This document shows positions 1,883 through 16,635 of a DNA stretch of 17,979 bases, in pieces (within the stretch, counting starts at the first letter, position 1; every line of letters begins with the position of its first letter). The notes under the pieces are model-generated. The model searched no databases. It worked only from the letters and a program-made list of their open reading frames with translations, and was not told where the DNA came from. The DNA is taken from the NCBI GenBank assembly GCA_022566355.1, contig JADFJB010000098.1, positions 1 through 17,979 of the forward strand. The letters are read 5' to 3'. The DNA comes from a candidate division KSB1 bacterium. GTDB taxonomy: Bacteria > Zhuqueibacterota > JdFR-76 > DREG01. The translations under genes were made by a program, and so were the position numbers.

Positions 1883-3349
1883 TCACCTCACATCGTACCG
1901 CAAAAAAGCGACAAACGCACCTGCAAATGACAGAATTGTGTAAAACGCCAGCAACCCAAAATCTATTATTGTTGGTGAAATGGCTTCTAAATTTCCTAAT
2001 ATAGATGCTTCGAATCTAGGTAAATCGGTTACATCCAATGTACCCCTGTCTCTGCTACTGGTCATACTAAATCCTGTTTCCGAATTTATAGTAATCCGAA
2101 TCCCACCTCTACCCCCACCCTCTTCTTGCTTTTTCGCGACATATTGCTTGAATGTACCCCGGTAATTGTTCATGGCATCTTCGTAGCGGGATTTTAAGGT
2201 GATATTCGTTCCGCCAAGGTTCATCGCTGCCAATTGGTAGGCGGAAGCTGGTGAAAAACGAGACAGAGTAAACGCCATTCGTTCTTGAACCTGCCTGCGA
2301 TTTCGAACGTCTTCCAACAGTTTACGTGAAAATTCATCGATATCTTGTTCAACCGCATTTCGCGCTTTGTCATCTTCTTGCATCCATCCCCACTCATTGT
2401 CATCACGAAAAGCTTCACGTTCATCTTCATCCATTCCCTCCATTGTCACACTTCGCTCTTGCCAGCGAGCCATTAACTCGTCCCTGTAGTTATCCCATCT
2501 TTGTTTGGCAAAGCCATCTTGTTGGCCATCAATTTCTCCTACTGATGGCACAGAAATGAACTGGCCGGCAGCTATTACAGATGCACGGGGAATGATTAAC
2601 ACAAATACCACCCAAACAACCAATGATATCAAAAACGAAACTGCTGATCGCCGGACCAAAGCTGAGATCAATAAACCCATTGAGACAAACGTTGTGAAGA
2701 ATAAAAATGAAACCCCTAACCAAACCAAAAGTCTCAACCAATGATCGCTGGTTAATGGCACTCGAAAAACCAATAACAGCATACACCCTAATAGCAATGG
2801 AATGAGCAGAGGAACAATCAATGCAATTAGAGACCCTATAAATTTTGCCATTAAATATTTCGCCCGGGGGACGGCGTTTGCGAATGTCAATTGCAGGGTT
2901 CCTCCTTCACGTTCTCCATTAATTGCATCAAAAGTAAATAGGATAGCGAATAATGACAACACAACTTGAAAAATAAAAGTGAGATCGATATAGCGAAATA
3001 CGGCGAAGATCGGATCATCGGAATAATTGCTATTTTGTAGTTTAACTGATTGTGATGAATGGATGATTGAATAGCGTCCGATGTCATTATTCACACCGGA
3101 GACAAATATTTGCATAGGATCCGGTTTCCTAAATGCCCGATTATTTACCCCATGCCAACTGGTCGATTCTCGAATTTGCTGATCGGTTAATTGCGTAGCT
3201 GTTTCGTACTGCCGAATCGCTGACTGGTAATCTTTGATCCCAACAAAAACACTTAGTAAAATCAGAATTGAACACGCCAAAAATGTTGTGGCGAATTTGG
3301 GGCTCAGTATAATAGCTTTTAGTTCTTTTTCCAACAAAGTTCTAAACAT
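1883..3349 (-). CDS. ABC-2 type transporter permease, second paralogue
   Basis: A 488-residue polytopic membrane protein. Segment 1 is near residues 17-38. An extracytoplasmic loop follows, then four segments (FIFQVVLSLFAILFTF; LIALIVPLLIPLLLGCMLLL; LLVWLGVSFLFFTTFV; FLISLVVWVVFVLIIP). A large hydrophilic insertion of about 170 residues comes next, and a sixth segment ends in FVAFLRYDVR. The conserved INGEREGGTL...PRAKYLMAK stretch after segment 2 is the cytoplasmic coupling region typical of ABC-2 permeases. AGGAG seven bases before the ATG supports the start. The protein aligns end to end with its neighbour, 23 bases upstream, including an identical C-terminal decapeptide. The two probably form a heterodimer served by the ATPase encoded upstream. 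It is the last gene of the cluster. The substrate cannot be inferred; family call confident. Confidence 0.85.
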   Translation of the reverse strand: MFRTLLEKELKAIILSPKFATTFLACSILILLSVFVGIKDYQSAIRQYETATQLTDQQIRESTSWHGVNNRAFRKPDPMQIFVSGVNNDIGRYSIIHSSQSVKLQNSNYSDDPIFAVFRYIDLTFIFQVVLSLFAILFTFDAINGEREGGTLQLTFANAVPRAKYLMAKFIGSLIALIVPLLIPLLLGCMLLLVFRVPLTSDHWLRLLVWLGVSFLFFTTFVSMGLLISALVRRSAVSFLISLVVWVVFVLIIPRASVIAAGQFISVPSVGEIDGQQDGFAKQRWDNYRDELMARWQERSVTMEGMDEDEREAFRDDNEWGWMQEDDKARNAVEQDIDEFSRKLLEDVRNRRQVQERMAFTLSRFSPASAYQLAAMNLGGTNITLKSRYEDAMNNYRGTFKQYVAKKQEEGGGRGGIRITINSETGFSMTSSRDRGTLDVTDLPRFEASILGNLEAISPTIIDFGLLAFYTILSFAGAFVAFLRYDVR

Positions 3350-3372
3350 TTCAATCTCCTAAACAATTAGCA

Positions 3373-4788
3373 TTATCTCACATCATACCTTAGAAAAGCA
3401 ACAAAGGCTCCCATAAAAAATACCAGGTTAAAAAATGCCAGGATGCCAAAATCCACAGCAATTGCACCCGCTGTTTTATTCAATCTCATATCATTGTATT
3501 GGAATTCCGGCAACTCATGGGGATCGATGGCTTCCGGTTCTTCCTGTTCATCGTCAATCATTCTAAACATCATAACATGGCCACCCATGTTCATACCGGT
3601 TTTCTCTTTAATGAACCGGGCATAGGATTTTTGATAATTTGTAGCTTCATTCACAAAATGTTGACCGAGTCGAATTGAAGTATTGGCCAAATTGGTAGCT
3701 ACCAATGAAAAAGTCGCTGTTGGTGAAATTCTGGCAATTGTGAATGCTAACTTTTCCTGAACGGCTTGACGATTTCTTCTTTCTTCATTCAACTTTCCGG
3801 CAAATTCAAGCGTCTGTTTTTCCCGCTCATCTGCCAAATCCTGCATAAATTTGTTAAACTGTTCCATAATCTTCCCGGGTTCTTCTGTTGGATCAGGCTT
3901 AAAATTTCCCATCTTATCCCGATCTTCTTTCCACAACTGTGAGATAAATCTATTTTTTTGCGAGGCGATCTCATCCACAGAAGGCACATCAACAGCCCGC
4001 CCCGCGATCAACACCGAGGAACGTGGAATGATGAGAACGACAAATATCCAGATAACCAATAAAAACAAGAATGAACTGGATGATCGTTTTGTGAGAGCAG
4101 AAATGAAAATTGAAAGCGTAAGAAAAACACCAAAATACAGTAAGCCAGCAAACAAAACTCCTGCAAGACGAAGCCATTCCTCTGACGACAATGAGACTCC
4201 AAGAAGTGGAAGGAATAAACATCCCAACAAAATTGGGATTAGCAGAGGAATAGTCAGCGCCAGAAAACCGCCAAGAATCTTGCCGAGAATATACTGATCC
4301 CGAGGGATGGCATTGGCAAAAGAAAGCTTTAATGTGCCCTTCTCTTTCTCGCCATTGATAGCATCGTACATAAAAAGAATCGCAAACAGGGACAAGACAA
4401 TCTGGAAAATGAAGTTCAAATCCAGGAAGCGGAATACTGCAAAGATAGGATCACTGTTGAAACGACTGTCTTGAGACGCCAGTTCTCCACGCCCCTGGAC
4501 TTTCACCGTACGCCCGATATCACTGGAAACACCTGTGACCAAAGCTTCCAAAGGCCCTGGCGGCAAAAATATTCGATGGTTTCTTAACATCATCCAATCC
4601 GTCAATCCTTCCATCTGCCGCATATTTTCTGCCTTCGCCGCATCGTATTGCGAGGCACTAAGTTTGTAATTCTTTGCTCCAACAAAGAAACTCAGCAAAA
4701 TCAAAGTTGCACAAACTGCAAATGTAATAGCAAATTTTGTCGACCCGATAATTTCACGCAGTTCTTTTTCGATGATTAATTTTAGCAT
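3373..4788 (-). CDS. ABC-2 type transporter permease, first paralogue
   Basis: A 471-residue permease. The frame is open to a GTG at 4794, but AGAGG (4794-4798) overlaps that GTG and sits five bases before the ATG at 4788, so the ATG is chosen. The chosen start also makes the N terminus (MLKLIIEKELREII) align with MFRTLLEKELKAII of the paralogue. There are six predicted membrane segments: one near residues 17-38, four between about 126 and 256, and one at the C terminus. A loop of roughly 90 residues precedes segment 2, and a large charged domain with heptad-like character (residues about 265-435) precedes segment 6. INGEKEKGTLKLSF marks the ABC-2 coupling region. It differs from its partner mainly in the hydrophilic domain, which has a Met/Glu-rich stretch near residue 400. 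The pair look like an old tandem duplication specialised into two subunits. Substrate unknown. Confidence 0.85.
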   Translation of the reverse strand: MLKLIIEKELREIIGSTKFAITFAVCATLILLSFFVGAKNYKLSASQYDAAKAENMRQMEGLTDWMMLRNHRIFLPPGPLEALVTGVSSDIGRTVKVQGRGELASQDSRFNSDPIFAVFRFLDLNFIFQIVLSLFAILFMYDAINGEKEKGTLKLSFANAIPRDQYILGKILGGFLALTIPLLIPILLGCLFLPLLGVSLSSEEWLRLAGVLFAGLLYFGVFLTLSIFISALTKRSSSSFLFLLVIWIFVVLIIPRSSVLIAGRAVDVPSVDEIASQKNRFISQLWKEDRDKMGNFKPDPTEEPGKIMEQFNKFMQDLADEREKQTLEFAGKLNEERRNRQAVQEKLAFTIARISPTATFSLVATNLANTSIRLGQHFVNEATNYQKSYARFIKEKTGMNMGGHVMMFRMIDDEQEEPEAIDPHELPEFQYNDMRLNKTAGAIAVDFGILAFFNLVFFMGAFVAFLRYDVR

Positions 4789-4852
4789 GCTCACCTCTAG
4801 TAATGTATCATTTGTGTAATTTTATTCATCAAAGTGACTTTTTAACTTTCCA

Positions 4853-4882
4853 CCCTTCGACTCCGCTCCCTTCGACTCCGCT
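4853..4882 (+). repeat. Tandem CCCTTCGACTCCGCT x2
   Basis: Two perfect adjacent 15-bp copies (4853-4867 and 4868-4882), followed by CAGGGGG. The core belongs to a TTCGACTCCGCTCAGGG-type motif that recurs in intergenic DNA of many bacteria. The second copy forms part of the left arm of the larger inverted repeat. Confidence 0.8.
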
Positions 4883-4932
4883 CAGGGGGCTATTCATTTT
4901 TTTTGATTGTAAAATAAAGCTTCCTTTTTTAT

Positions 4933-4971
4933 CTGACATTTTTTCTATAGCTGCTACATTATTCCAAGCTG
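4933..4971 (+). repeat. Imperfect direct repeat, copy 1
   Basis: This stretch shares CTGACATTTTTTC and CTACATTATTCCAAGC with 5032-5066, 99 bases away. The copies differ by a four-base length difference in the middle and by scattered changes. Confidence 0.7.
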
Positions 4972-5031
4972 CTCTTTTAATCGAAAGTGGTTTTTTATGG
5001 ATATGTTCAAATATTTCAACTCCTTCTTTAG

Positions 5032-5066
5032 CTGACATTTTTTCAGTTCTACATTATTCCAAGCAG
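5032..5066 (+). repeat. Imperfect direct repeat, copy 2
   Basis: This is the second copy of the repeat at 4933-4971. It directly abuts the right arm of the 27-bp inverted repeat. The length difference shifts the minus-strand reading frame between the copies. Confidence 0.7.
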
Positions 5067-5107
5067 TTCCCTGAGCGGAGTCGAAGGGAGCGGAGGTAGT
5101 TTGTCAA

Positions 5108-5920
5108 TTATGCTTCTTCCTTTTCCAACTTCAGATCTTCTTTGTATACTTCTACATATTCCATGTAGAGCTTTTCCAGGTCTTCATTTTCAACTTCGGC
5201 GTGGGTTCGCTCCATTACCAATTTTCCCTCGTTCATGATTCCAATGACGTCTGAAATCTCCTTTGCCCGAAAGATATCATGCGTGAACATCAGGATAGCT
5301 TTGTTTTCACTACGGAGCTCTGCCAGTAATTTGATAAACTCGTAACCTGCTTTCGGATCAAGCCCGGAGGTTGGCTCATCCAATAGAATTGCGGGAGCAT
5401 CTTTCAAAATTGCGATGGCAATACCGCACTTTTGCCGCATACCTTTGGAAAAACCACCTAACCGTTTGTTATGGGCTTCTTCTTGCAGGCTTACCCGGGT
5501 CAACACTTCGCGATAATCGTCTTTACTGTATTTAGTTTTCCCGCCAAGCCGGGCGAAAAAATCCAGGTTCTGAATTGCCGTGAATTGCGGGTACAACATT
5601 ACATTTTCCGAGACAAACGCCGCTTTTTGTTTTGCTTTCAAGGGTTCCCTGTGTGTTACAATCCCATCAATTCTTGCCTCGCCTTCGGTGGGGTCAATGA
5701 AATTGAAGAACAGGTTAATGGTTGTGGTCTTGCCGGCTCCATTAGCACCGAGCATTGCATAAATTTGTCCAGGATACACAGAAAAAGACAAATGATCTAC
5801 ACCCATTACACCATCTTCGTAACGCTTGGTTAAATTATCCGTCTCCAACATTGGCGACTTTATATCTGGTTCTTTAACTTCATTTTGTTCTGGTTCGAAA
5901 TGATTCTCTTTGCTTTCCAT
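5108..5920 (-). CDS. ABC transporter ATP-binding protein (ABC-2 exporter type)
   Basis: The nucleotide-binding subunit for the two downstream permeases, 270 residues from the chosen start. In this numbering: Walker A GANGAGKTT at 58-66; Q-loop region FVSENVMLYPQ with Glu (near 105) where Gln is usual, a variant often seen in ABC-2 exporters; signature GGFSKGMRQK near 155-164; Walker B AILLDEP ending near 183; D-loop SGLD; switch His near 214 (FTHD). ATP hydrolysis at the cytoplasmic face would drive the permease pair. The frame is open to an ATG at 5965, but that codon lacks a ribosome site. GAAGGA stands six bases before the ATG at 5918-5920, so that start is preferred. Either way there is an acidic N-terminal extension of at least 20 residues before the conserved METDNLTKRYEDG-like region. 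An inverted-repeat element separates it from the permeases. Substrate unknown. Confidence 0.92.
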   Translation of the reverse strand: MESKENHFEPEQNEVKEPDIKSPMLETDNLTKRYEDGVMGVDHLSFSVYPGQIYAMLGANGAGKTTTINLFFNFIDPTEGEARIDGIVTHREPLKAKQKAAFVSENVMLYPQFTAIQNLDFFARLGGKTKYSKDDYREVLTRVSLQEEAHNKRLGGFSKGMRQKCGIAIAILKDAPAILLDEPTSGLDPKAGYEFIKLLAELRSENKAILMFTHDIFRAKEISDVIGIMNEGKLVMERTHAEVENEDLEKLYMEYVEVYKEDLKLEKEEA

Positions 5921-6063
5921 TTCATTTCCTTCAAATTTTGTAATTGCGTTAGTACTCATTTTCATTAGAATTTTTCTTTGCTTTCAATGAATTTAATTTT
6001 CTTATTCCTGGTTAATTGTTATTTTGAATTTGAATTTAGAAATTCGTTTTTCTTAATTATGTG

Positions 6064-7593
6064 TTATCTTCTTGACAACCGAATTCCAAAAACAACGATG
6101 CCTACAATCAATCCAACAATAGCTAAAATCAAGACAGTAATTCCTAATACATTTGCCTCGGCTTGAATTTCGATAGTTACCGTTTTATCTTCGCCATTTA
6201 CCGGCTGATCGTCAGACAAAGAACTGGAGCGAATCCTGACTTCATAACGGCCGACAGAAACATCTTCTTTTGGTTTAATATTTATGATAACAACTTTCTC
6301 TTCACCAATTTCCAGAGACGGAATTACCGGGGGCTCAATTACTTTTTGCCAGTTCAATGGCGGATCGACTTCAACGACTACATTGTCCAGCCGGCGCGTT
6401 CCTTCGTTGACCATTTCAATGCTAATAGAAACAGATTCATCAGCCAGAATCGTATGAAATAATTGGGGTGCACGTACCAAAAGCACACCAATTCCTCGTG
6501 GTACGATTTCCAAAGACACATAGCCGATTTTCATTTTCTTAATTTCTTCATGAGTCCATACTTTTCGACGAATATTGTTAGCGTCTAAGGCTTTATTTTT
6601 AGGAATCACCAATACATAAAAAAGAATAGGTTTATCGATAAGGACTTCCGCGGTTGGCCTGTCCGGTAAGTATACTTGCAGAGCTACCCGTTTGGTATTA
6701 CTGCTCTCGGTAAACTTAAACTGGCTGAGCCTTGCTTGACTGGATGGATCGCTAAAAAACCGGGTTATTTGATTTGGTAAATTTACAACTTCAAGTTTAA
6801 AAGTATTGGTTACACCGCTAAATAATTCCAGAGTCATGCTAAAGGTTGCGGTTCCACCCAATTCAACCTCCTGGGAAAACTGCTCTGATTGAACAATCAC
6901 TTTATTTGCACTGGCATCCTTTTGTAAATATACCTTAGGAGTACGTTGAGACCCGTTGCCATAAATAATATCTATTGTCACAATATCCACGTCTTGAAGT
7001 AACTCAAATTCAATCTCTTCAGGTCTCCCATATCGAAGCTCTTCAATCTTAATTTCGTAAGGCAGGCTAATGATGGCATTCTGATCGTTGAGCAAAGAGA
7101 TATACACATCGTTGATAATATCCGGCTGCAGAGATCGGAATAATTCATCATCAATATTCACCAGCTTACGAAACTCAGCGCTGCCTCCGGATGTGTTTTC
7201 CAATTGAACTCGAACTCGTTTGCGTCCATCTTCAGTTTGATATTTGACCGCTTTTCGTACCGAGACATATTGTTTTTCAAACAAAACAGCCAACAAGGAT
7301 TGTTGGTAATTCACTTCCGCATTTGCATACATATTGCGTGCACGATCTAACTCAAGCTGAGAAATCAAATCTTTTGCCCGCATTTCCTTCATGCGGTCAA
7401 ATTCCGTTCTTGCAACTTCGAAAGCTTCCTTTGCGCGCTTCAATCCTAACAGGCGGTACTGGTCATCCCGTTGATTAAACGGCGTACCTGTTTGAGACCA
7501 GGAGTGTTGAGGCAGACAGCCAATGAAACACAGGGTGAACAGGCAGATTCGTTTGAATCCAAGAATTTGTTTCAAGGTTTTTAACACAATCAC
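6064..7593 (-). CDS. Coiled-coil / NEW3-domain envelope protein with C-terminal membrane anchor
   Basis: A 509-residue protein in four parts. (1) A hydrophobic N-terminal signal, about residues 10-34. (2) An alpha-helical stretch, about 45-112, containing EFDRMKEMRAKDLISQLELD and NAEVNYQQSLL; this pattern resembles the helical hairpin of HlyD-type membrane-fusion proteins. (3) A long beta-rich region, with a C-terminal Ig-like domain (about 385-478) resembling the NEW3/NPCBM-associated fold. (4) A membrane helix (about 482-504) followed by IRLSRR. It should sit outside the cytoplasmic membrane, anchored at its C terminus. The start is GTG: either 7593, only three bases after AAGGGA, or 7587, nine bases after it. 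It follows the PDZ gene by 13 bases, so the two are probably translationally coupled, and precedes the ATPase gene. An accessory role for the transporter is inferred. Domain names rest on pattern recognition only. Confidence 0.7.
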   Translation of the reverse strand: MIVLKTLKQILGFKRICLFTLCFIGCLPQHSWSQTGTPFNQRDDQYRLLGLKRAKEAFEVARTEFDRMKEMRAKDLISQLELDRARNMYANAEVNYQQSLLAVLFEKQYVSVRKAVKYQTEDGRKRVRVQLENTSGGSAEFRKLVNIDDELFRSLQPDIINDVYISLLNDQNAIISLPYEIKIEELRYGRPEEIEFELLQDVDIVTIDIIYGNGSQRTPKVYLQKDASANKVIVQSEQFSQEVELGGTATFSMTLELFSGVTNTFKLEVVNLPNQITRFFSDPSSQARLSQFKFTESSNTKRVALQVYLPDRPTAEVLIDKPILFYVLVIPKNKALDANNIRRKVWTHEEIKKMKIGYVSLEIVPRGIGVLLVRAPQLFHTILADESVSISIEMVNEGTRRLDNVVVEVDPPLNWQKVIEPPVIPSLEIGEEKVVIINIKPKEDVSVGRYEVRIRSSSLSDDQPVNGEDKTVTIEIQAEANVLGITVLILAIVGLIVGIVVFGIRLSRR

Positions 7594-7606
7594 GATTCCC
7601 TTATGT

Positions 7607-8389
7607 TTAGTCCTGTCGGATTATGATATTACCGCGTGCCTTTGGTTTTACTACAGAGACACTCAATTTCTGACCATCACGGGATAGTTCAATGTCGAGT
7701 TTATCACCAACTTCAACTTTCCCATAGATTTCTTCAAATTGCTGGGTGGATTTTACCACTTGTCCATTTAGGGCTTGAATAATGTCACCATCTTTTAGTT
7801 CATTTTTGTCCATACCCGGTAAAGGCAAAACACGAGCAACTATAACCATTCCCTCCTCTTCGCCCAATATTACCGCGAGACCCATCACAGGCTTTAAATT
7901 CTCATAACCGTCCATTTCTTCAGGCGTGATCATCATCATTCTTTGTCCACCAGGGGAGTGTCCGCCTTCACCCGAACCACGGCCAGCCATTTGCATTTGC
8001 GGCAGATCTTTTGGATCTGCTTTATCAAAAGAAATAATGAAGGGATCTTTATCTCGCTTTATACCAATCTGAACTTTAGCGCCAATTTCTAAATCTGCAT
8101 ATTGTTCCTCAAAAGCCTTCACTTTTTTAATCCGCTTTCCATTCAAATAAAGTATAACATCCCCCTCCTGAATATCTACACCCCGGTATGGCTCACGCCG
8201 CATATCTTTGGGCATAGCCATTGCAACTTTAACAGTATTATCACCTTCTTCAGTCAACATAACAGACAATTCTGGAATACGAAACATTTCACCTTCAATT
8301 TCGATTGTCCGGACAATCTGGGTAAATCCTGGCAGATTCCAAAGCAGAAGAATCATAGATAATAAAATAGTTTTACATTTCCTGGTCAT
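7607..8389 (-). CDS. Secreted protein with two PDZ domains
   Basis: A 260-residue protein starting at the ATG at 8387-8389, seven bases after GGAG; a TTG six bases upstream is less likely. It has an N-terminal signal sequence (MTRKCKTILL then a hydrophobic run to about 23). Two PDZ-like domains follow: the first has VDIQEGDVILYLNGKRI near 71-87, the second LKDGDIIQALNGQVV near 198-212. They are joined by a Met/Gly-rich linker (about 130-155). No trypsin-like, S41 or site-2 protease domain is present, so it is likely a binding or scaffold protein rather than an enzyme. It is the first gene of the five-gene cluster and ends 13 bases before the NEW3 protein gene. PDZ domains bind C-terminal peptides or exposed strands, so a partner in the envelope is likely. 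Domain call confident; function unknown. Confidence 0.8.
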   Translation of the reverse strand: MTRKCKTILLSMILLLWNLPGFTQIVRTIEIEGEMFRIPELSVMLTEEGDNTVKVAMAMPKDMRREPYRGVDIQEGDVILYLNGKRIKKVKAFEEQYADLEIGAKVQIGIKRDKDPFIISFDKADPKDLPQMQMAGRGSGEGGHSPGGQRMMMITPEEMDGYENLKPVMGLAVILGEEEGMVIVARVLPLPGMDKNELKDGDIIQALNGQVVKSTQQFEEIYGKVEVGDKLDIELSRDGQKLSVSVVKPKARGNIIIRQD

Positions 8390-8418
8390 AATCAATCTCC
8401 TCTGTTTATAAAAATGAA

Positions 8419-8536: not shown

Positions 8537-8570
8537 GTTAAAGAGTGTTAGGAAATGTTAAATAATGTTA
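8537..8570 (+). promoter_or_regulatory. Four GTTA boxes at exact 10-bp spacing: putative response-regulator site
   Basis: GTTA occurs at 8537, 8547, 8557 and 8567; the last three are TGTTA. OmpR/PhoB-family regulators bind head-to-tail half-sites spaced 10-11 bp. The array lies 41 bases upstream of the histidine kinase start and 147 bases upstream of the divergent PDZ-gene start. Autoregulation by the regulator at 10311-11021, and control of the ABC cluster, are inferred. Confidence 0.5.
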
Positions 8571-8611
8571 ATTAGCAAGAATTCGAGGAGAATATTTCGT
8601 AATTTCGAATC

Positions 8612-10354
8612 ATGAAACAAAAACGTAAAACCATGGTGGTTATAATCGTTCTGATTTCAGCCGCGCTTCTCGGGTTGATCTGGCTACAAATAGTACTGCT
8701 GGATAGAGCTTTCGAATTAAAAAACCAGGCATTTCAACAAAATGTAAATTCAGCGCTCAATTCCATAGTCCACAGGCTGGAAGATAAAGAAATGGTTTCT
8801 AAAGTGATTCGGGTTATGATTAAAGCGGATTCAAATAAACCTGCACAAAAAATTCATAGGGAAGTAAAAGTGTTAACTTCAGATGTGGAATTTGGCGACA
8901 GTTCAATAGTTTGGAATTATAAGTATTCAAATATACCAAGGTTTGATGTCGAAAAAGGAAAATTTTACTATAATCTCACATCACCACAGCATGTTCGCCT
9001 GCGAATTTTAGATACACTGGGAAATGAGATAGAAGAAGTGTTAAATGAGTACAAGCCGGCAGGCCATTATGAATTGTTAATTGATACACTAGGCACAAAA
9101 CCGGGCAAAACCGTTTTAAATTTTTTAGCCGACAGCAGTAGCTACAATATGATCGTTGTAGCTGGCAGTAAAATCAATTTTACGTCTGGATTATTATCTA
9201 ATGAAAAAAAATCGACAATAATAAACCGGATTTTATCGCAACTAACAGAGATTGAAACACAACCCATCGAAGCCAGGATTCAAAAGGCCGTGTTAGACTC
9301 GGTGGTTAAGACCACACTTGCTGAAAATCAAATCAATTTGCCGGTTGAGTATGGGATCCATGCTATCGAACAAGATACGATAAAATTTGCAGCATCAAGC
9401 ATGTCCATTACATCTTTGAAGGAAAGCAAGTTTCGCAGCAGGCTTTTTCCTGGCGATCCGTTTTATAGCCAAAACGATATTGTTTTATACTTTCCACAAC
9501 AAACTATGTACCTTCTTAAACAAAATGGCATTCTACTCATTGCATCGATGATTTTACTTTCCATTATTGTTTTCTTTTTTATCTTCACGATGCGAACCAT
9601 TTTTAAGCAAAAGCGATTTGCAATCTTACTGACAGATTTCATCAATAACATGACCCATGAGTTTAAAACACCCATCTCTACGATCTCATTGGCCAGCGAA
9701 GCCATATCAAATCCGGCAGTTTTGACTAATAAGAAAAAATTAAAGCAATACAATAGCATTATCAAAGATGAGAATACTCGCATGCGCAATCAAGTAGAAA
9801 AAATTTTGCAAATGGCGGTTTTGGAGGAAGGAGAATTCGAGTTAAACAAAGACTTTGTTGATGTCCATCAAATTATTAGAGATACAGTGGCTAATATACA
9901 TTTACAGATCGAAAAAAGAAAAGGATCTATTTCTTGTGATTTAACAGCAAATCCCTCAATCATCCAGGTAGATCCGATTCATTTTACAAATGTGATTCAT
10001 AACTTAATAGATAATGCCAATAAATACACAAAGTTACAACCAGCCATATCAATAACAACCGGAAACAATCACGATGGAATTAAAATCAATGTTTCGGATA
10101 ATGGTATTGGTTTGGCGCAAGAAGATAAAAAACATATCTTCGATAAATATTATCGCGTATCCACCGGCAATGTTCACGATGTGAAGGGATTTGGTTTGGG
10201 ATTGAGTTATGTGAAGTTAATTGTTGAAGCACATGGCGGCACCGTGTCTTTAGAGAGCGAAGAAAACAAAGGCAGTACTTTTTTACTATTTATGCCCTAT
10301 CAAAAAAACAATGGCAAATCCAAAAAAACAGCAGCAGCGAATTCTGCTAATTGA
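8612..10354 (+). CDS. Membrane-bound sensor histidine kinase
   Basis: A 580-residue kinase. Membrane segment 1 is near residues 9-30, followed by a periplasmic sensor region of about 270 residues without a domain I recognise. Segment 2 is near 304-327. The catalytic core follows directly, with no obvious HAMP or PAS domain. H-box MTHEFKTPIST has the phospho-acceptor His349. N-box is HNLIDNANKYT (about 463-473), G1 DNGIG (496-500), F-box IFDKYYRV, and G2 GFGLGLSYV (526-534). It would phosphorylate the regulator encoded next to it, whose start codon lies inside the last 44 bases of this gene. An in-frame stop 10 bases upstream fixes the start at or after 8612. The only good ribosome-site-like run, GAGGAG (8585-8590), is 21 bases away, which is too far for a normal site. 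This suggests weak or unusual initiation. Overall similar in style to Bacteroidota RprX-type kinases. Confidence 0.92.
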   Translation: MKQKRKTMVVIIVLISAALLGLIWLQIVLLDRAFELKNQAFQQNVNSALNSIVHRLEDKEMVSKVIRVMIKADSNKPAQKIHREVKVLTSDVEFGDSSIVWNYKYSNIPRFDVEKGKFYYNLTSPQHVRLRILDTLGNEIEEVLNEYKPAGHYELLIDTLGTKPGKTVLNFLADSSSYNMIVVAGSKINFTSGLLSNEKKSTIINRILSQLTEIETQPIEARIQKAVLDSVVKTTLAENQINLPVEYGIHAIEQDTIKFAASSMSITSLKESKFRSRLFPGDPFYSQNDIVLYFPQQTMYLLKQNGILLIASMILLSIIVFFFIFTMRTIFKQKRFAILLTDFINNMTHEFKTPISTISLASEAISNPAVLTNKKKLKQYNSIIKDENTRMRNQVEKILQMAVLEEGEFELNKDFVDVHQIIRDTVANIHLQIEKRKGSISCDLTANPSIIQVDPIHFTNVIHNLIDNANKYTKLQPAISITTGNNHDGIKINVSDNGIGLAQEDKKHIFDKYYRVSTGNVHDVKGFGLGLSYVKLIVEAHGGTVSLESEENKGSTFLLFMPYQKNNGKSKKTAAANSAN

Positions 10355-11021
10355 GGACGATCCTAACTTAGGATATATTTTACAAGAAAACTTGGAATTG
10401 CATGGATATCACGTGCATCGATGCATGGACGGTGAAGAAGGTTTGGATGCTTATCTTCGCAATAATTTCAACCTTTGCCTGATCGATGTAATGCTGCCAA
10501 AAAAAGATGGTTTTTGCCTTGCAAAAGACATTCGAAAAACTAACCAGAAAATACCCATTATTTTCCTGACAGCCAAATCCCTCAAAGAAGATCGGATAGA
10601 AGGATTTAAAATAGGCGGTGATGATTATGTTGTTAAGCCATTTAGTATGGAAGAATTGGTTCTGCGTATTCAGGCAGTTCTTAAAAGAACAGGGAAATCA
10701 TCGCAAGTTTCCATTGAAAAAGCAAAATTTCCCATTGGTCAATATACATTTGATTATGAAAATCAAATATTGATTTTACAAGATCATTCAACTAAGCTAA
10801 CTTCAAAAGAAGCCGAACTGCTGAAATTATTATGTATGCATGAAAATGATATTTTAGACCGTGAAATAGCGCTAAAACTGATTTGGAGCGATGATAATTA
10901 TTTCACTGGTAGAAGCATGGATGTGTTTATTTCTAGATTGCGTAAGTATTTGAGTAATGATACAAACGTCGAAATCAGGAATGTTCATGGTAAGGGATTT
11001 AAGTTGGTTGTTAAGACGTGA
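10311..11021 (+). CDS. OmpR-family response regulator
   Basis: A 236-residue regulator. The receiver domain (residues 10-125) has the acidic pair D16/D17 in ILLIEDD, phospho-acceptor Asp59 (LCLIDVMLPKKDG), Thr87 (FLTAKS) and Lys109 (YVVKPFS). The winged-helix DNA-binding domain (about 140-235) has LTSKEAELLKLL, the recognition helix SMDVFISRLRKYL, and the wing NVHGKGFKLVV. All catalytic receiver residues are present. Its start overlaps the kinase gene by 44 nt in the +1 frame, with no clear ribosome site, so translation probably depends on ribosomes finishing the kinase gene. OmpR-family proteins bind direct repeats; four GTTA boxes upstream of the kinase are the obvious candidate site. Targets beyond that are inferred. 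Confidence 0.93.
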   Translation: MANPKKQQQRILLIEDDPNLGYILQENLELHGYHVHRCMDGEEGLDAYLRNNFNLCLIDVMLPKKDGFCLAKDIRKTNQKIPIIFLTAKSLKEDRIEGFKIGGDDYVVKPFSMEELVLRIQAVLKRTGKSSQVSIEKAKFPIGQYTFDYENQILILQDHSTKLTSKEAELLKLLCMHENDILDREIALKLIWSDDNYFTGRSMDVFISRLRKYLSNDTNVEIRNVHGKGFKLVVKT

Positions 11022-11449: not shown

Positions 11450-13543
11450 CTATTTGACCAATATAAATTTCTTGGCAATACTAAACTCACCTGTATGTAG
11501 GCGATAAAAATAAATTCCTGTAGGTAAACCGATCGCATCAAACACCACATTGTGTGTACCTGCATTTCGGACTTCATTCAAAAGCGAGATGATTTCTTTT
11601 CCTTGCAAATTATAAATTTTTAGGGATACTTCCGAGCGTTCAAGTAAAGAAAATTGAATCACAGTAGTGGGATTAAAGGGATTGGGATAGTTTTGGTAAA
11701 GCTCGAATTGCTTTGGAATGCTACTATTCAAAGACTGGTTTTCTTCAACAACAGTCATGGCATCAGAAGTTTTAAGAATAGTGCCGCCATCTCCAACAAC
11801 CCATCCTGTTGATGAATCAATAAAAAACACCGAACTTAATTTTTTTGAGGTACCACTGCTTACTGCGTTCCATTGCTCTCCGCCATTTGATGTTTTAAGA
11901 ATCGTACCGCCAAATCCAACTACCCATCCAGTCATGTCATTAACAAAATGTAAAGCTAATAGACTCAATGCCGTTCCACTATTTTGAAATTCCCAATTTG
12001 AGCCTCCATTTGTTGTTTTCAGAATGGTACCATTGTACCCCGCTACCCAACCGGTTTTAGCGTCCCTAAAATGCACTGAACGCAATATTTCAACCGATCC
12101 ACTATTTTGAGGGCTCCATTGTTGTCCACCGTCTATAGTGTGAAGAATCGTACCGTTTTCTCCCACCGTCCAACCTGAATCCGCATGGGTAAAAAATGCA
12201 GAATACAACTGGTTACTTGTTCCACTCATTTGAGCATCCCAATTTTCACCTCCGTTTGTGGTCTTTAGGACGGTTCCATTTGCTCCCACCACCCAGCCAA
12301 TATCTGCGTTGGAAAAATACACTGAATTTAAATGATCCGTCGTTCCACTTGTAACGGTGATCCAGTTTTCACCGCTGTTTAATGTTTTACGGATGGCGCC
12401 ATTGATGCCAACTGCCCAGCCAACATCCGGATTATGGAAATAAACAGACCGTAAATTATTGGTTGTTCCACTTACCTGAGGTAGCCAATTCGTTCCTCCA
12501 TCCGAAGTATTGAGCAAGATACCGTTTATTCCCACCGCCCAACCGGTAGAAGCGTCTGCGAAATAAACAGATTCTAAAACATTTGTTGGTCCAAATGTCT
12601 GGGAAGTCCATTCTTTCCCTTTATCGGTTGTCTTGAGAATCATGCCATTGATTCCAACCACCCAACCTGGTGAGGTATTGCTAAATTTTACAGATTGTAA
12701 GTTAACAGAGGGTTCAATGGTTCTAGACGACCAGTTTAACCCGCCATTTGTAGTCTTGATTATTGTACCCGAATTTCCAACTGCCCAACCTGTATCCACG
12801 TCTGCAAAATAGACAGCATTCAATTGCTGAGGTGTTCCACTACTTTGGTGTGTCCAATTCACCCCGCCATCGATTGTATTTATAATGATGCCAAAACTTC
12901 CAACGGCATAGCCTGTAGTATCATCGATGAAAAAGACGGAAACCAGGCTATTCCCGATTCCTGTGTTCTGAATATCCCAGTTTTCTCCACCATCTATAGT
13001 CTTAAGAACAGTTCCATTGAAACCGGTCACCCAGCCTTTATCCGCATCGACAAAAAAGATTGACTGTAAATCACTCGAAGTTCCGCCGGTTTGAAAATCC
13101 CAGTTTTCTCCACCGTCGATAGTCTTGAAAATTCGACCAAACCTACCAACCACCCAACCGACATTGCCATCGACGAAAAAAACCGAATTTAAGTCAAATC
13201 CAAAGCCGGAGTTCTTTGCAGTCCAGGTTATCCCACCATCCACGGTTTTTACAATTGCATCACCATTACCAACAGCCCAGCCGGTATCTACATCTGTAAA
13301 ATAAATGGATTGTAAACGATTTGTTGTTCCACTATTTTGCAGGGTCCAACTCTGGCCGCCATCTCCTGTTTTAATGATGGCGCCATCGTTGCCGGCGGCA
13401 ATTGCAGTATTTTCATCAAAGACGAATATATCCTGCAGGGAATTGCCCTGGGGTTTTGGATTTTGCCATTGCCAGTTGCCCTGGGCATACGCCATAACAA
13501 AATGGAAAAAAGGAAGGACGAGTAAAATTAGAAAGCGTTTCAT
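11450..13543 (-). CDS. Secreted YCF48-like beta-propeller protein with type IX sorting domain
   Basis: A 697-residue protein. The signal peptide runs to about residue 21 (AYAQ|GNW). Then come fourteen consecutive 41-residue repeats (33-606) of the YCF48/BNR type, with consensus LxSVYFxDxxTGWxVGxxGTILKTxDGGxNW. The C-terminal sorting domain of about 85 residues has YPNPFNP at 619-625 and ends AKKFILVK. Repeat 14 lacks the final DGGxNW strand, while the mature N terminus (GNWQWQNPKP) matches exactly that strand. This suggests ring closure by pairing the two ends. Fourteen is twice the seven blades of Hcf136/YCF48, so a double propeller is possible. It should be exported by Sec and then by type IX secretion to the surface or outside. 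AAGGA six bases before the ATG supports the start. The ligand is unknown; photosynthetic function is not implied by the repeat name. Confidence 0.88.
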   Translation of the reverse strand: MKRFLILLVLPFFHFVMAYAQGNWQWQNPKPQGNSLQDIFVFDENTAIAAGNDGAIIKTGDGGQSWTLQNSGTTNRLQSIYFTDVDTGWAVGNGDAIVKTVDGGITWTAKNSGFGFDLNSVFFVDGNVGWVVGRFGRIFKTIDGGENWDFQTGGTSSDLQSIFFVDADKGWVTGFNGTVLKTIDGGENWDIQNTGIGNSLVSVFFIDDTTGYAVGSFGIIINTIDGGVNWTHQSSGTPQQLNAVYFADVDTGWAVGNSGTIIKTTNGGLNWSSRTIEPSVNLQSVKFSNTSPGWVVGINGMILKTTDKGKEWTSQTFGPTNVLESVYFADASTGWAVGINGILLNTSDGGTNWLPQVSGTTNNLRSVYFHNPDVGWAVGINGAIRKTLNSGENWITVTSGTTDHLNSVYFSNADIGWVVGANGTVLKTTNGGENWDAQMSGTSNQLYSAFFTHADSGWTVGENGTILHTIDGGQQWSPQNSGSVEILRSVHFRDAKTGWVAGYNGTILKTTNGGSNWEFQNSGTALSLLALHFVNDMTGWVVGFGGTILKTSNGGEQWNAVSSGTSKKLSSVFFIDSSTGWVVGDGGTILKTSDAMTVVEENQSLNSSIPKQFELYQNYPNPFNPTTVIQFSLLERSEVSLKIYNLQGKEIISLLNEVRNAGTHNVVFDAIGLPTGIYFYRLHTGEFSIAKKFILVK
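11726..13447 (-). repeat. Fourteen in-frame 123-bp coding repeats
   Basis: The 41-codon unit repeats fourteen times with no length change (1722 bases in all). Units encoding the third and fourth blades share almost identical DNA over the GGENWD-coding part, indicating recent duplication within the gene. Other units have diverged. Confidence 0.85.
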
Positions 13544-13727: not shown

Positions 13728-16550
13728 TTATTTTAACAAAACAAATTTCTTCGTTTGCACAAAACGATCCTTGCTACTCGAGTGGGATTGAATCTGGTAA
13801 TAGTACACACCACTAGTCAATTCCGATGCATCTACAGTAACTAAATGCATACCCGCCTCTCGTTTTTCATGTAACAATGTCGTGACCTCACGGCCCTGGC
13901 TATCAAATATTTTAATAATTACTTCAGATGGATCCGGCAACGAGAATTGAATTGTCGTAACAGGATTAAAGGGATTAGGATAATTTTGCATTAACTGGTA
14001 TGAGTTCGGTTTCTCAATTGAAACAACTGATGTAGCCAAAGAGTCAAATACACCTATCTCACTGATCTCACTTATATTATTGAATTCATCCCAGGATTTC
14101 ATGGCAAAACGATAATCTTTTATATTGCCTGGAAGATCAAGGACCAAAGACTGCAATTGATTTCCGGCAGTCGGTAATGGTTCATTTTGGATATGTTCCA
14201 TTTCCCAATAGGCTGTCCCGTCCGTATTATTTAAACTGTGTAGATCTTTGATTGGCCCCTCCTGGTCAGTATACTTAATTTGTAATCGCACCGCATCCTG
14301 GACATTGCGCCAATACAAACGAATATTTCCAGTTGATGAATCCCGGTTAAAATAAATATTCGTTATTTTTGCAGGTGGATCATGATCTGGCTTTTGGTTC
14401 TCCGTGGCGTAAGCCGCCACAGAGGCAAATCCCAATCCACCACCTTCCCAGTAAACATTGCTCGTATTGAGTAAAGTATTTAATACCTCTGGATCACCAA
14501 AGAATTCATAAAAGATCGATATACTCGGAAAATCCTGGGCATTCCAAAAGTCCTGTGGCGCTGCAGATGATGGAGTGGTTTGATGCCATGCTCGATAACA
14601 ATAACCTGGGAATTCACCAACATTTAATGCACCATAGATTTGCATTAGCCATTTGCCACCTGCATAGATGTGATCCATCGCAGTTTCATATCCAGCCAGG
14701 AAAAATACATCATACGCTGATTGTATCCAATTACTTGCAAAAATCAGTTTGACTTCATCACCGGCAAAACCACAGTCACTTTCGAATGGCGTCCACGAGG
14801 CAAAAAACCCATTCTTGTGAATCGGATCCCAACTGTTGTTCCCTTCCACATTATGTCCCTTGTTATGCAAAAATTCCCAATAGTCATCAAGGAATTCTTT
14901 ATCTTGATTACTTCGAGTAATGGAGTAGTTCCTGGCAAAGTGTGTCAGATAATAGCTGGAGGGCCGTTGATCGTATCGAGTAGCCAGATCTGTTAAATAA
15001 ATATATTTTCCAGATTTATTAAGATTATCGAAAGCATTTGCGACTCGCTTTTTACCGGTTAAATAATAATATTCAGTAATCGGATAATGCCCGCGGTGAT
15101 TGGAATCCCACATTCTGCCTTCAACCGGATCGGTCCAATCCGTGCTTCCAAATAAGGCCTCAACGTCAGTATATCCTGTACCATCCAAGGTAATTTCAAC
15201 ATCATCCATAAATATCCCCCGGCTTTCCATACAGGCGACGGCTAGCTCCTCGGCCTGTAAAAATCGATCCATATCTCTAGTCACTAAGAATCGATTGAAA
15301 GCGCCTGTCATTTGGTCACTGAGTCCATGGCCGTTACCAGCTGCCTGTATTCTGTTTTCACCATAATTTAAATAACCGGGGCTTACTGGTGTGAAATCAT
15401 AATTCTCATCCCAACCAAAGATACCAGAAAACAATAATCGGGAGTCGCCTATAAACATGCCGTCCCAGGCATAGGTTTTCTGAATGAATGTGTGTTCCGG
15501 TAAAGCGAACCAGGGAAATTCGTAATAATCCGCCCATTCTTTTAATGCTTCATCACTCCAAACCTGAGGGTGAAAGTCGAAATGAACATCCACGCCATGA
15601 GCGGTCATCGGACGGATTTGGCCTGTTGTAAGCGCAAGGTTGAGATTGCCATTGTTATCCAATGAAATTGACCTGGGATACATTTCAGAAAATCGGTTGA
15701 TTAGCACAGAAACTGCGCCATTATCACCGCTTAACTGGGCAGCTCCTCGTTTTTGTGGTGTGATGTTCGAAGAGGAAACGGATATACCAGATATAACATC
15801 AGAACCATAAACAAGTGTGCTCAGATTTCCACCTGGATTCATCTTCAAATTCAGAGCTCCCGCTTTTGTTTGGGGGCTGGTACTTTTGCCATTTCGGATG
15901 GTATATTCCAAAGTGATTCTACCAGAATTTTTGTACGCAGTAATCCAGATATATACGCCAACGTCATTCGTATTATAGTCCTCCTTGAAAACAAAACGTT
16001 TTGAAATTGGACCATCTTCAATCAAAGAGATTGTTCCATTAAGATTACCTGGCCCATCGGAAGCGCCAGCAACAATGAACTGTTTATCATACACACCGTC
16101 TGAGTTAGTGCTAATCCACAATTCATCAAACAGGTTGAACAGGTTTTCTCTCATTGTAAACCGAATTGCACCCGTACTTATTGTCCAGACTGTGCCACTT
16201 TTAACCGCTGTAAATAAGTCGGATTGAGTTGTATTTACAACATCGGTTTGAACAGAATAGCCAGTTTGATCGTTTGTAACGAATGATACTTTTGCCCAAC
16301 GAATGCTGCCATCGGCCCAGTATGCAAGTGGATGAAAGTCGGCTTCTACCTGTTGGCCATTTTGCCAAAGGCTGAGCTGCGATGGATCGATATTTCTGGA
16401 CTGTGGAATAGGCACGCCATTTTCAATCCATTTCTCGGAATGGCCGTTACCCAGGTAAGTTGTGATGGAAAGAGGGATTTCCTGGGCAAGGTTAGTTTTA
16501 GTCAATGCCATTAGAATAATAAGAGTCAAGTAAATTATTTTAGTTTTCAT
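13728..16550 (-). CDS. Large secreted PcRGLX/YetA-like (putative polysaccharide lyase) protein with type IX sorting domain
   Basis: A 940-residue protein from the ATG at 16548-16550, preceded by AGGAAGG at nine bases; the frame stays open to 16622, but the signal peptide (MKTKIIYLTLIILMAL...LAQ) begins at the chosen start. Residues about 25-105 (ENGVPIPQSRNI, then HPLAYWADGSIRWAKVSF) match the pattern of the N-terminal RIFT-barrel domain of PcRGLX/YetA-like proteins. That superfamily includes an exo-rhamnogalacturonan lyase. A beta-rich domain and a long helical part rich in Trp/Tyr/His follow (e.g. WDSNHRGHYPITEYYYLTG), plausibly an (alpha/alpha) barrel. Then comes a fibronectin-III-like segment, then the sorting domain with YPNPFNP at 857-863 ending KKFVLLK. 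Activity on pectin-like or other uronic-acid polysaccharides is a hypothesis; catalytic residues were not identified. Secretion via type IX is well supported. Confidence 0.65.
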   Translation of the reverse strand: MKTKIIYLTLIILMALTKTNLAQEIPLSITTYLGNGHSEKWIENGVPIPQSRNIDPSQLSLWQNGQQVEADFHPLAYWADGSIRWAKVSFVTNDQTGYSVQTDVVNTTQSDLFTAVKSGTVWTISTGAIRFTMRENLFNLFDELWISTNSDGVYDKQFIVAGASDGPGNLNGTISLIEDGPISKRFVFKEDYNTNDVGVYIWITAYKNSGRITLEYTIRNGKSTSPQTKAGALNLKMNPGGNLSTLVYGSDVISGISVSSSNITPQKRGAAQLSGDNGAVSVLINRFSEMYPRSISLDNNGNLNLALTTGQIRPMTAHGVDVHFDFHPQVWSDEALKEWADYYEFPWFALPEHTFIQKTYAWDGMFIGDSRLLFSGIFGWDENYDFTPVSPGYLNYGENRIQAAGNGHGLSDQMTGAFNRFLVTRDMDRFLQAEELAVACMESRGIFMDDVEITLDGTGYTDVEALFGSTDWTDPVEGRMWDSNHRGHYPITEYYYLTGKKRVANAFDNLNKSGKYIYLTDLATRYDQRPSSYYLTHFARNYSITRSNQDKEFLDDYWEFLHNKGHNVEGNNSWDPIHKNGFFASWTPFESDCGFAGDEVKLIFASNWIQSAYDVFFLAGYETAMDHIYAGGKWLMQIYGALNVGEFPGYCYRAWHQTTPSSAAPQDFWNAQDFPSISIFYEFFGDPEVLNTLLNTSNVYWEGGGLGFASVAAYATENQKPDHDPPAKITNIYFNRDSSTGNIRLYWRNVQDAVRLQIKYTDQEGPIKDLHSLNNTDGTAYWEMEHIQNEPLPTAGNQLQSLVLDLPGNIKDYRFAMKSWDEFNNISEISEIGVFDSLATSVVSIEKPNSYQLMQNYPNPFNPVTTIQFSLPDPSEVIIKIFDSQGREVTTLLHEKREAGMHLVTVDASELTSGVYYYQIQSHSSSKDRFVQTKKFVLLK

Positions 16551-16588
16551 CTGCATCAACCTTCCTAATTCAAAAAGTGTTTTCATTG

Positions 16589-16605
16589 ATCCTCTACGAG
16601 GATCT
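16589..16605. repeat. Palindrome GATCCTC-TAC-GAGGATC
   Basis: Perfect 7-bp arms around TAC, 39 bases upstream of the lyase-like gene start. Same core (CTC-TAC-GAG / CTC-GTA-GAG) as the palindromes further right, so probably one member of a repeat family rather than a private operator. Confidence 0.6.
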
Positions 16606-16635
16606 TGAGCTTGAGACAACAATTGCTTCTACAAT

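Follow-up and report, generated by a model that had tools for sequence, protein, structure and literature searches.

Background

Tripartite exporters are built of an ABC transporter, a periplasmic adaptor (membrane fusion protein, MFP) and an outer-membrane channel of the TolC family. Among them, YbhFSR has one ATPase and two permeases. We analysed a 17,979-nucleotide stretch of DNA (the window; contig C98 of the 4.6-Mb genome of a candidate division KSB1 bacterium) encoding a gene module that is similar to YbhG-YbhFSR (PMC7190983, PMC8277102) and MacAB-TolC, in that a proposed adaptor, an ABC ATPase and permeases lie in one operon and the adaptor hairpin has an RLS-type tip. The ATPase and the exporter-type permeases expected of a tripartite MFP-ABC-TolC exporter are recognizable by their Walker motifs and Pfam domains, and in some relatives of the module a TolC gene is adjacent. 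Unlike these exporters, the module has an adaptor (called here the NEW3 protein after its Pfam domain) without HlyD-type lipoyl and beta-barrel domains as judged by Pfam and a structure model, its hairpin sitting on a chain of immunoglobulin-like (Ig-like) and NEW3 domains with a C-terminal transmembrane (TM) helix. It also has a histidine kinase, a response regulator and a PDZ protein of its own.

Three other described systems share part of these features. NosDFY consists of the NosF ATPase, the NosY permease and NosD, which is a beta-helix protein. The module has a NosY-like permease core and a periplasmic partner encoded alongside. However, its two permeases are distinct from each other, are much larger and carry large extracytoplasmic loops, its periplasmic partner is modelled as a hairpin plus an Ig-like chain instead of a right-handed beta-helix, and no nos genes are found in the window. 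In BceAB-BceRS, too, an ABC transporter is linked genetically to a kinase and regulator of its own, but the module differs in having ABC-2 permeases, not the FtsX-like type of BceB, a TolC-type adaptor hairpin and a PDZ protein. The response regulator is nearest to RprY of the Bacteroidota two-component system RprXY, with a score of 315.9 bits that does not reach the cut-off of 370 of the NCBIfam model NF051850, and unlike in RprXY a single site dedicated to it lies next to a transporter.

Adaptors are known to be modular: passages on atypical members in two papers (PMC4158417, PMC3807786) describe EmrA without a membrane-proximal domain and BesA without a hairpin. Set against BesA as described there, our adaptor is the reverse, keeping the hairpin and having the rest replaced. 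The open-access literature gave nothing on DUF3526 or COG1470 with an ABC transporter, and nothing relevant on NEW3/NPCBM-associated domains with ABC-2 transporters.

Results

A seven-gene unit is conserved in three phylum-level groups. In the organism's own phylum, 22 of 82 genomes have a relative of the NEW3 protein; the numbers are 40 of 132 in the phylum containing a Zixibacteriota metagenome-assembled genome (MAG) and 16 of 149 in the phylum containing an Aminicenantes MAG. We counted the gene content by hidden Markov model annotation of about 80 loci, 71 of which have NEW3. An ABC ATPase gene is near NEW3 in 63 of these, a PDZ gene is present in 43 and the kinase gene in 40, and 28 have the full set with two permeases. 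The latter 28 loci, spread over all three groups, keep one order: regulator and kinase on one side, divergently oriented, then PDZ, NEW3, ABC ATPase, permease and permease. Since this order recurs in such distant relatives, chance clustering is excluded. The median gaps among the relatives are 2 bases between PDZ and NEW3, 25 between NEW3 and the ATPase, 1.5 between the ATPase and the first permease and 17 between the permeases. The divergence of all seven proteins is correlated (r 0.56-0.86), a value confounded by species relatedness.

The original prediction had described, from the window alone, a possible envelope transport system of five genes. The conserved system is upheld, its gene order being kept across relatives, but the unit is larger than proposed: the divergent kinase and regulator pair adjoins PDZ and belongs to it, and this pair and a shared operator had been left out. 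The prediction would also have been refuted by PDZ and NEW3 genes consistently lacking ABC genes, and it was not, as the count for NEW3 given above shows. PDZ, present in 38 of the 40 kinase loci, tracks the kinase rather than NEW3 or the pump.

A second lineage has NEW3, the ATPase and one to five permeases without kinase or PDZ genes. It is represented by loci L161, L162, L166 and L170-L173 of the Aminicenantes-containing phylum, where one to five permease paralogues stand in varied order. In one genome NEW3 is split in two over loci about 730 kb apart on contig C1, the hairpin part lying with the kinase and PDZ genes and the operator at one locus and the Ig-like and TM part with the ATPase and permeases at the other (L152 and L153), which suggests a rearrangement through the gene. 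Several relatives in the organism's own phylum have genes for serine beta-lactamase-fold proteins (PF00144) and S41 peptidases inserted in the operon, between PDZ and NEW3 in L028, L029, L033 and L034 and after the ATPase in L029, L033 and L036. Several of the inserted hydrolases share an N-terminal stretch resembling 'LPDTPAG..AFNSGD'.

The gap between the kinase and PDZ genes contains a series of four direct repeats, TTAAC/TTAAC/TAAC/TTAAC, with a period of exactly 10 bp. Sites of OmpR/PhoB-family regulators are typically spaced direct repeats. All 16 TAAC positions are intact in 36 of 41 kinase-PDZ gaps, compared with 0 of 8,200 shuffles. The window's own genome has a single copy of the pattern, even with three mismatches allowed. 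Across genomes it is present in 13 of 82 from the organism's phylum and in 39 of 132 from the Zixibacteriota-containing phylum, while a reversed control pattern gave only 2 matches overall. The sites that we checked adjoin this kinase or PDZ gene, also where the contig has no NEW3. The repeats are probably the dedicated operator of the response regulator, to which we infer that the regulator binds. As there is only one operator in the genome, no further target of a wider regulon can be read as a clue to function.

The NEW3 protein has an adaptor-like hairpin on an Ig-like chain. It consists of a signal segment, an N-terminal alpha-hairpin, an Ig-like chain with NEW3 as its last domain and a C-terminal TM anchor. 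The anchor had been claimed in the original prediction and agrees with both the hydropathy and the model (Table 1). The coiled coil mentioned there is also present, but it had not been recognized as a hairpin of the adaptor type. Weak matches to MFP and OEP families at residues 50-103 gave the first hint of this. The AlphaFold2 model, built on a 20-sequence alignment (pLDDT, the predicted local distance difference test score, 83), places hairpin helices at residues 44-73 and 79-106, beta domains at 110-477 and a TM helix at 482-508, with pLDDT of about 86-93 over most of the hairpin.

A search of the PDB with the family profile returned four matches at E<1, namely 4l8j (a putative efflux transporter), MexJ, AcrA and ZneB; all are MFPs, all were matched via the hairpin, and the best has E=0.0022. 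With a profile of the hairpin only, MFPs scored as high as 41 bits and 12 of 19 of them reached 10 bits or more, against a maximum of 2.7 bits for reversed or shuffled MFP decoys. This test set is partly biased because some of its MFPs were first chosen by the NEW3 profile; the MFPs in L218, L220, L221, L123 and L140 are free of this bias. Among 1,013 open reading frames other than NEW3, the 25 that scored at least 10 bits were all MFPs, members of the TolC family or fragments of such proteins. By these profile scores the likeness is to MFP and TolC helices specifically, not to coiled coils generally. In the alignment of relatives the predicted tip follows the pattern R-x3-L-x6-S (RxxxLxxxxxxS), with R in 56 of 66, L or M in 64 of 67 and S or T in 57 of 67. 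Mutation of this RLS motif (RLT in HlyD) affects TolC binding in MacA, AcrA and HlyD (PMC3391258).

The window NEW3 protein has no Pfam match to the HlyD-type lipoyl and beta-barrel domains (HlyD_D23, HlyD_3) and its model shows Ig-like sandwiches, whereas true MFPs from related genomes match such domains at E 1e-16 to 1e-25. With lipoyl and barrel domains absent, membership in the HlyD/MFP family was ruled out. Foldseek and VIA-align lists for the model are full of Ig-domain matches and thus uninformative on the hairpin. The NEW3 domain itself is confirmed by its match to a sialidase domain (Z 12.2). Overall, the hairpin appears to be a relative of MFP hairpins carried on an unrelated Ig-like scaffold. 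It is a more specific clue than the permease loops, which the original prediction had offered as possible docking sites, and it points to TolC.

A TolC gene (PF02321, E<=1e-37 where scanned) is located directly before NEW3 in L004, L039, L042 and L043 and is divergent from NEW3 in L164, and no MFP gene was seen at these five loci. Compared with the TolC homologues of the window genome, the TolC proteins of L039, L042 and L043 share one nearest match, and L004 and L164 have a different one; the link between TolC and NEW3 is therefore seen in at least two lineages. We looked for an orphan TolC near the module as the partner and rejected this candidate: none is there, and the five of the window genome's eight TolC homologues that were read in context all sit in clusters with an MFP. 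The same genome encodes ABC-2-like exporters with TolC, in clusters (L218, L220) where TolC and an MFP are combined with an ABC ATPase and a permease-like protein some 1,100 residues long.

The five genes of the original prediction are all present on the minus strand with Pfam support (Table 1), including the tandem PDZ domains. The predicted gaps of 13 bases between PDZ and NEW3 and 23 bases between the permeases are exact. NEW3 and the ATPase are 98 bases apart. The description of the genes as lying directly before one another is looser between the ATPase and permease A than elsewhere, since the 313-base gap there holds a repeat element. This element has perfect 27-bp inverted arms (4861-4887 and 5069-5095) around 181 bp; its core, CTTCGACTCCGCTCAGGG, has 24 copies in the genome with up to one mismatch allowed, and it is a dispersed REP/MITE-like element (repetitive extragenic palindrome or miniature inverted-repeat transposable element). 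The PDZ gene also has a longer form with a TTG start at 8395, and its product has a single hydrophobic segment by hydropathy, at the N-terminus.

The ABC2_membrane_2 domain matches the two permeases with E=4e-29 and 1e-29. By hydropathy the loops of each are roughly 90 and 190-210 residues long; the large loop is modelled as helical, with moderate confidence. NosY was the sole PDB match of the permease profile (E=9e-10) and also gave the top fold matches in Foldseek. The profile of the whole kinase matched, among the PDB matches listed, the catalytic core alone and no sensor domain.

Table 1. Features of the module in the window, with positions, strand and supporting evidence
Feature	Positions	Strand	Evidence
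Sensor histidine kinase, divergent from module	8612..10354	plus	HisKA, HATPase_c; present in 40/71 NEW3 loci
OmpR-family response regulator, RprY-like	10311..11021	plus	Response_reg, Trans_reg_C; 315.9 bits to RprY
Probable operator of the response regulator, four direct repeats of TAAC, 10-bp period	8537..8571	minus	16/16 positions in 36/41 loci
PDZ protein, exported, two PDZ domains	7607..8389	minus	ATG start; PDZ_2 E=5e-18, two stretches
NEW3 protein, proposed non-canonical periplasmic adaptor	6064..7593	minus	NPCBM_assoc (NEW3) E=4e-10
NEW3 alpha-hairpin, residues 44-106	7276..7464	minus	AlphaFold2 helices; MFP-like by profile
RLS-like hairpin tip RMKEMRAKDLIS, R67, M71, S78	7360..7395	minus	Alignment of 67 relatives
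NEW3 domain, residues 370-477	6163..6486	minus	Pfam; sialidase counterpart domain, Z 12.2
C-terminal TM anchor, residues 482-508	6070..6150	minus	Hydropathy peak 3.08; AlphaFold2 helix
ABC ATPase	5108..5965	minus	ABC_tran E=3e-27; Walker motifs GANGAGKT (A) and ILLDEP (B)
ABC-2 permease A, NosY-like core, large extracytoplasmic loops	3373..4794	minus	ABC2_membrane_2; six TM peaks
ABC-2 permease B, paralogue of permease A	1883..3349	minus	ABC2_membrane_2 + DUF3526; six TM peaks

Three other assignments were tried and rejected. The gliding-motility models gave 129.9 of 402.6 bits for GldA and 24.0 and 29.1 of 288.5 bits for GldF, far under the cut-offs; PADLOC gave generic ATPase matches only, and an anti-phage defence role was dropped; and plasmid-borne spread was dismissed, tblastn finding no relative in PLSDB. 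Elsewhere in the window, a YCF48-like repeat protein (11450-13543) and a PcRGLX-like protein (13728-16622) both have C-terminal Por_Secre_tail sorting domains, and at 636-1526 an AraC-type helix-turn-helix is fused to a 6-O-methylguanine-DNA methyltransferase domain, as in Ada.

Discussion

We consider the chances to be somewhat in favour of the locus encoding a dedicated envelope-spanning tripartite ABC-2 exporter, regulated by its own two-component system and using a non-canonical Ig/NEW3 adaptor. In such an exporter the permeases A and B would form the inner-membrane channel, powered by ATP binding of the single ATPase. The NEW3 protein would be the periplasmic adaptor, held in the inner membrane by its C-terminal TM helix, with the Ig-like chain ending in NEW3 spanning up through the periplasm and the N-terminal hairpin reaching a TolC-family outer-membrane channel by its RLS-type tip. 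The substrate would enter a periplasmic path formed or gated by NEW3. As in E. coli, one of the eight TolC homologues encoded in the window genome might act in trans as the partner. The kinase may sense either the substrate or the envelope stress that it causes, upon which the regulator would bind the four TAAC repeats between the kinase and PDZ genes and turn on both divergent transcripts. As the PDZ protein tracks the kinase rather than the pump, it would most likely be the link between the periplasm and the kinase. For the substrate, a toxic peptide or another envelope-active compound is our guess, based on the linkage to a two-component system and on the hydrolase genes inserted in some relatives. 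These beta-lactamase-fold and S41 genes hint at peptides or antibiotics and prove nothing.

Several points weigh against an exporter of this kind. None of the window genome's eight TolC homologues lies beside the module, and in the relatives with an adjacent TolC the NEW3 protein is only about 40% identical. OEP/TolC genes are present in 73 of 73 scanned NEW3 genomes; this prediction might have failed, but it carries little weight, TolC being found in most diderms. The window tip has Met in place of Leu, and R or K, a hydrophobic residue and S or T are combined in only 45 of 66 relatives. Similarity between coiled coils may be convergent. Adaptor hexamers are normally built by lipoyl and beta-barrel domains; as NEW3 lacks both, its oligomerisation would need another route. 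The permease model is of moderate quality only, with pLDDT 66. Two loci, L063 and L064, have the kinase and regulator, PDZ, the ATPase and both permeases but no local NEW3; their genomes carry NEW3 elsewhere, beside TolC (L039, L043).

An alternative hypothesis could be that the module transmits movement as NosDFY does, with no outer-membrane duct. NEW3 would then be a periplasmic arm passing ATP-driven movement to a client or lipid carrier, the hairpin would be merely a dimerisation coil, and the targets would be envelope lipids, lipoproteins or the maturation of metal enzymes. The permease matches to NosY in sequence and fold, the window module without TolC and the anchoring of NEW3 by its own TM helix all fit this picture. 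However, the hairpin is specifically MFP- and TolC-like by profile and its tip retains the TolC-docking motif, TolC is adjacent in five relatives, and NosD is a beta-helix protein where NEW3 is an Ig chain. We regard this alternative as possible and rather unlikely.

It is less probable still, in our estimate, that the locus serves resistance and flux sensing in the manner of BceAB-BceRS, where the transporter would dislodge an antimicrobial peptide or an antibiotic bound to its target, the two-component system would read the transporter's activity, PDZ would couple the two and TolC would be unneeded. The tight linkage of kinase and regulator with one dedicated operator per genome, the tracking of the kinase by PDZ and the hydrolases in the operon of several own-phylum relatives would all be expected from it, but the permeases are of the ABC-2/NosY type instead of the FtsX-type of BceB, and the hairpin favours an adaptor directed to the outer membrane. 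Such a role can be combined with the tripartite exporter. That an ordinary ABC exporter simply stands beside independent PDZ and NEW3 genes, as the 313-bp gap with its repeat element might suggest, is highly improbable, being contradicted already by the order conserved across three phylum-level groups, by the shared divergent operator and by the correlated divergence of the seven proteins, confounded as that is by relatedness.

Conclusions

The adaptors of tripartite pumps are treated as one domain family. What would be new in the tripartite exporter proposed here is a variant whose adaptor retains the hairpin while its body is replaced. We give even odds to a broader claim, that NEW3 founds a separate adaptor class with the TolC-docking hairpin on an Ig chain instead of a lipoyl/beta-barrel body, and with PDZ linking the pump to its own kinase, in at least three phylum-level groups, one lineage being controlled by the two-component system and another having TolC beside the adaptor. 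If this is true, the TolC-docking hairpin would be a portable module that can be transferred to an unrelated scaffold, and a class of pumps that MFP-based annotation overlooks in little-studied phyla would come to light. Being single and very strongly conserved, the operator allows the regulatory claim to be tested directly and offers a DNA tag for finding more members.

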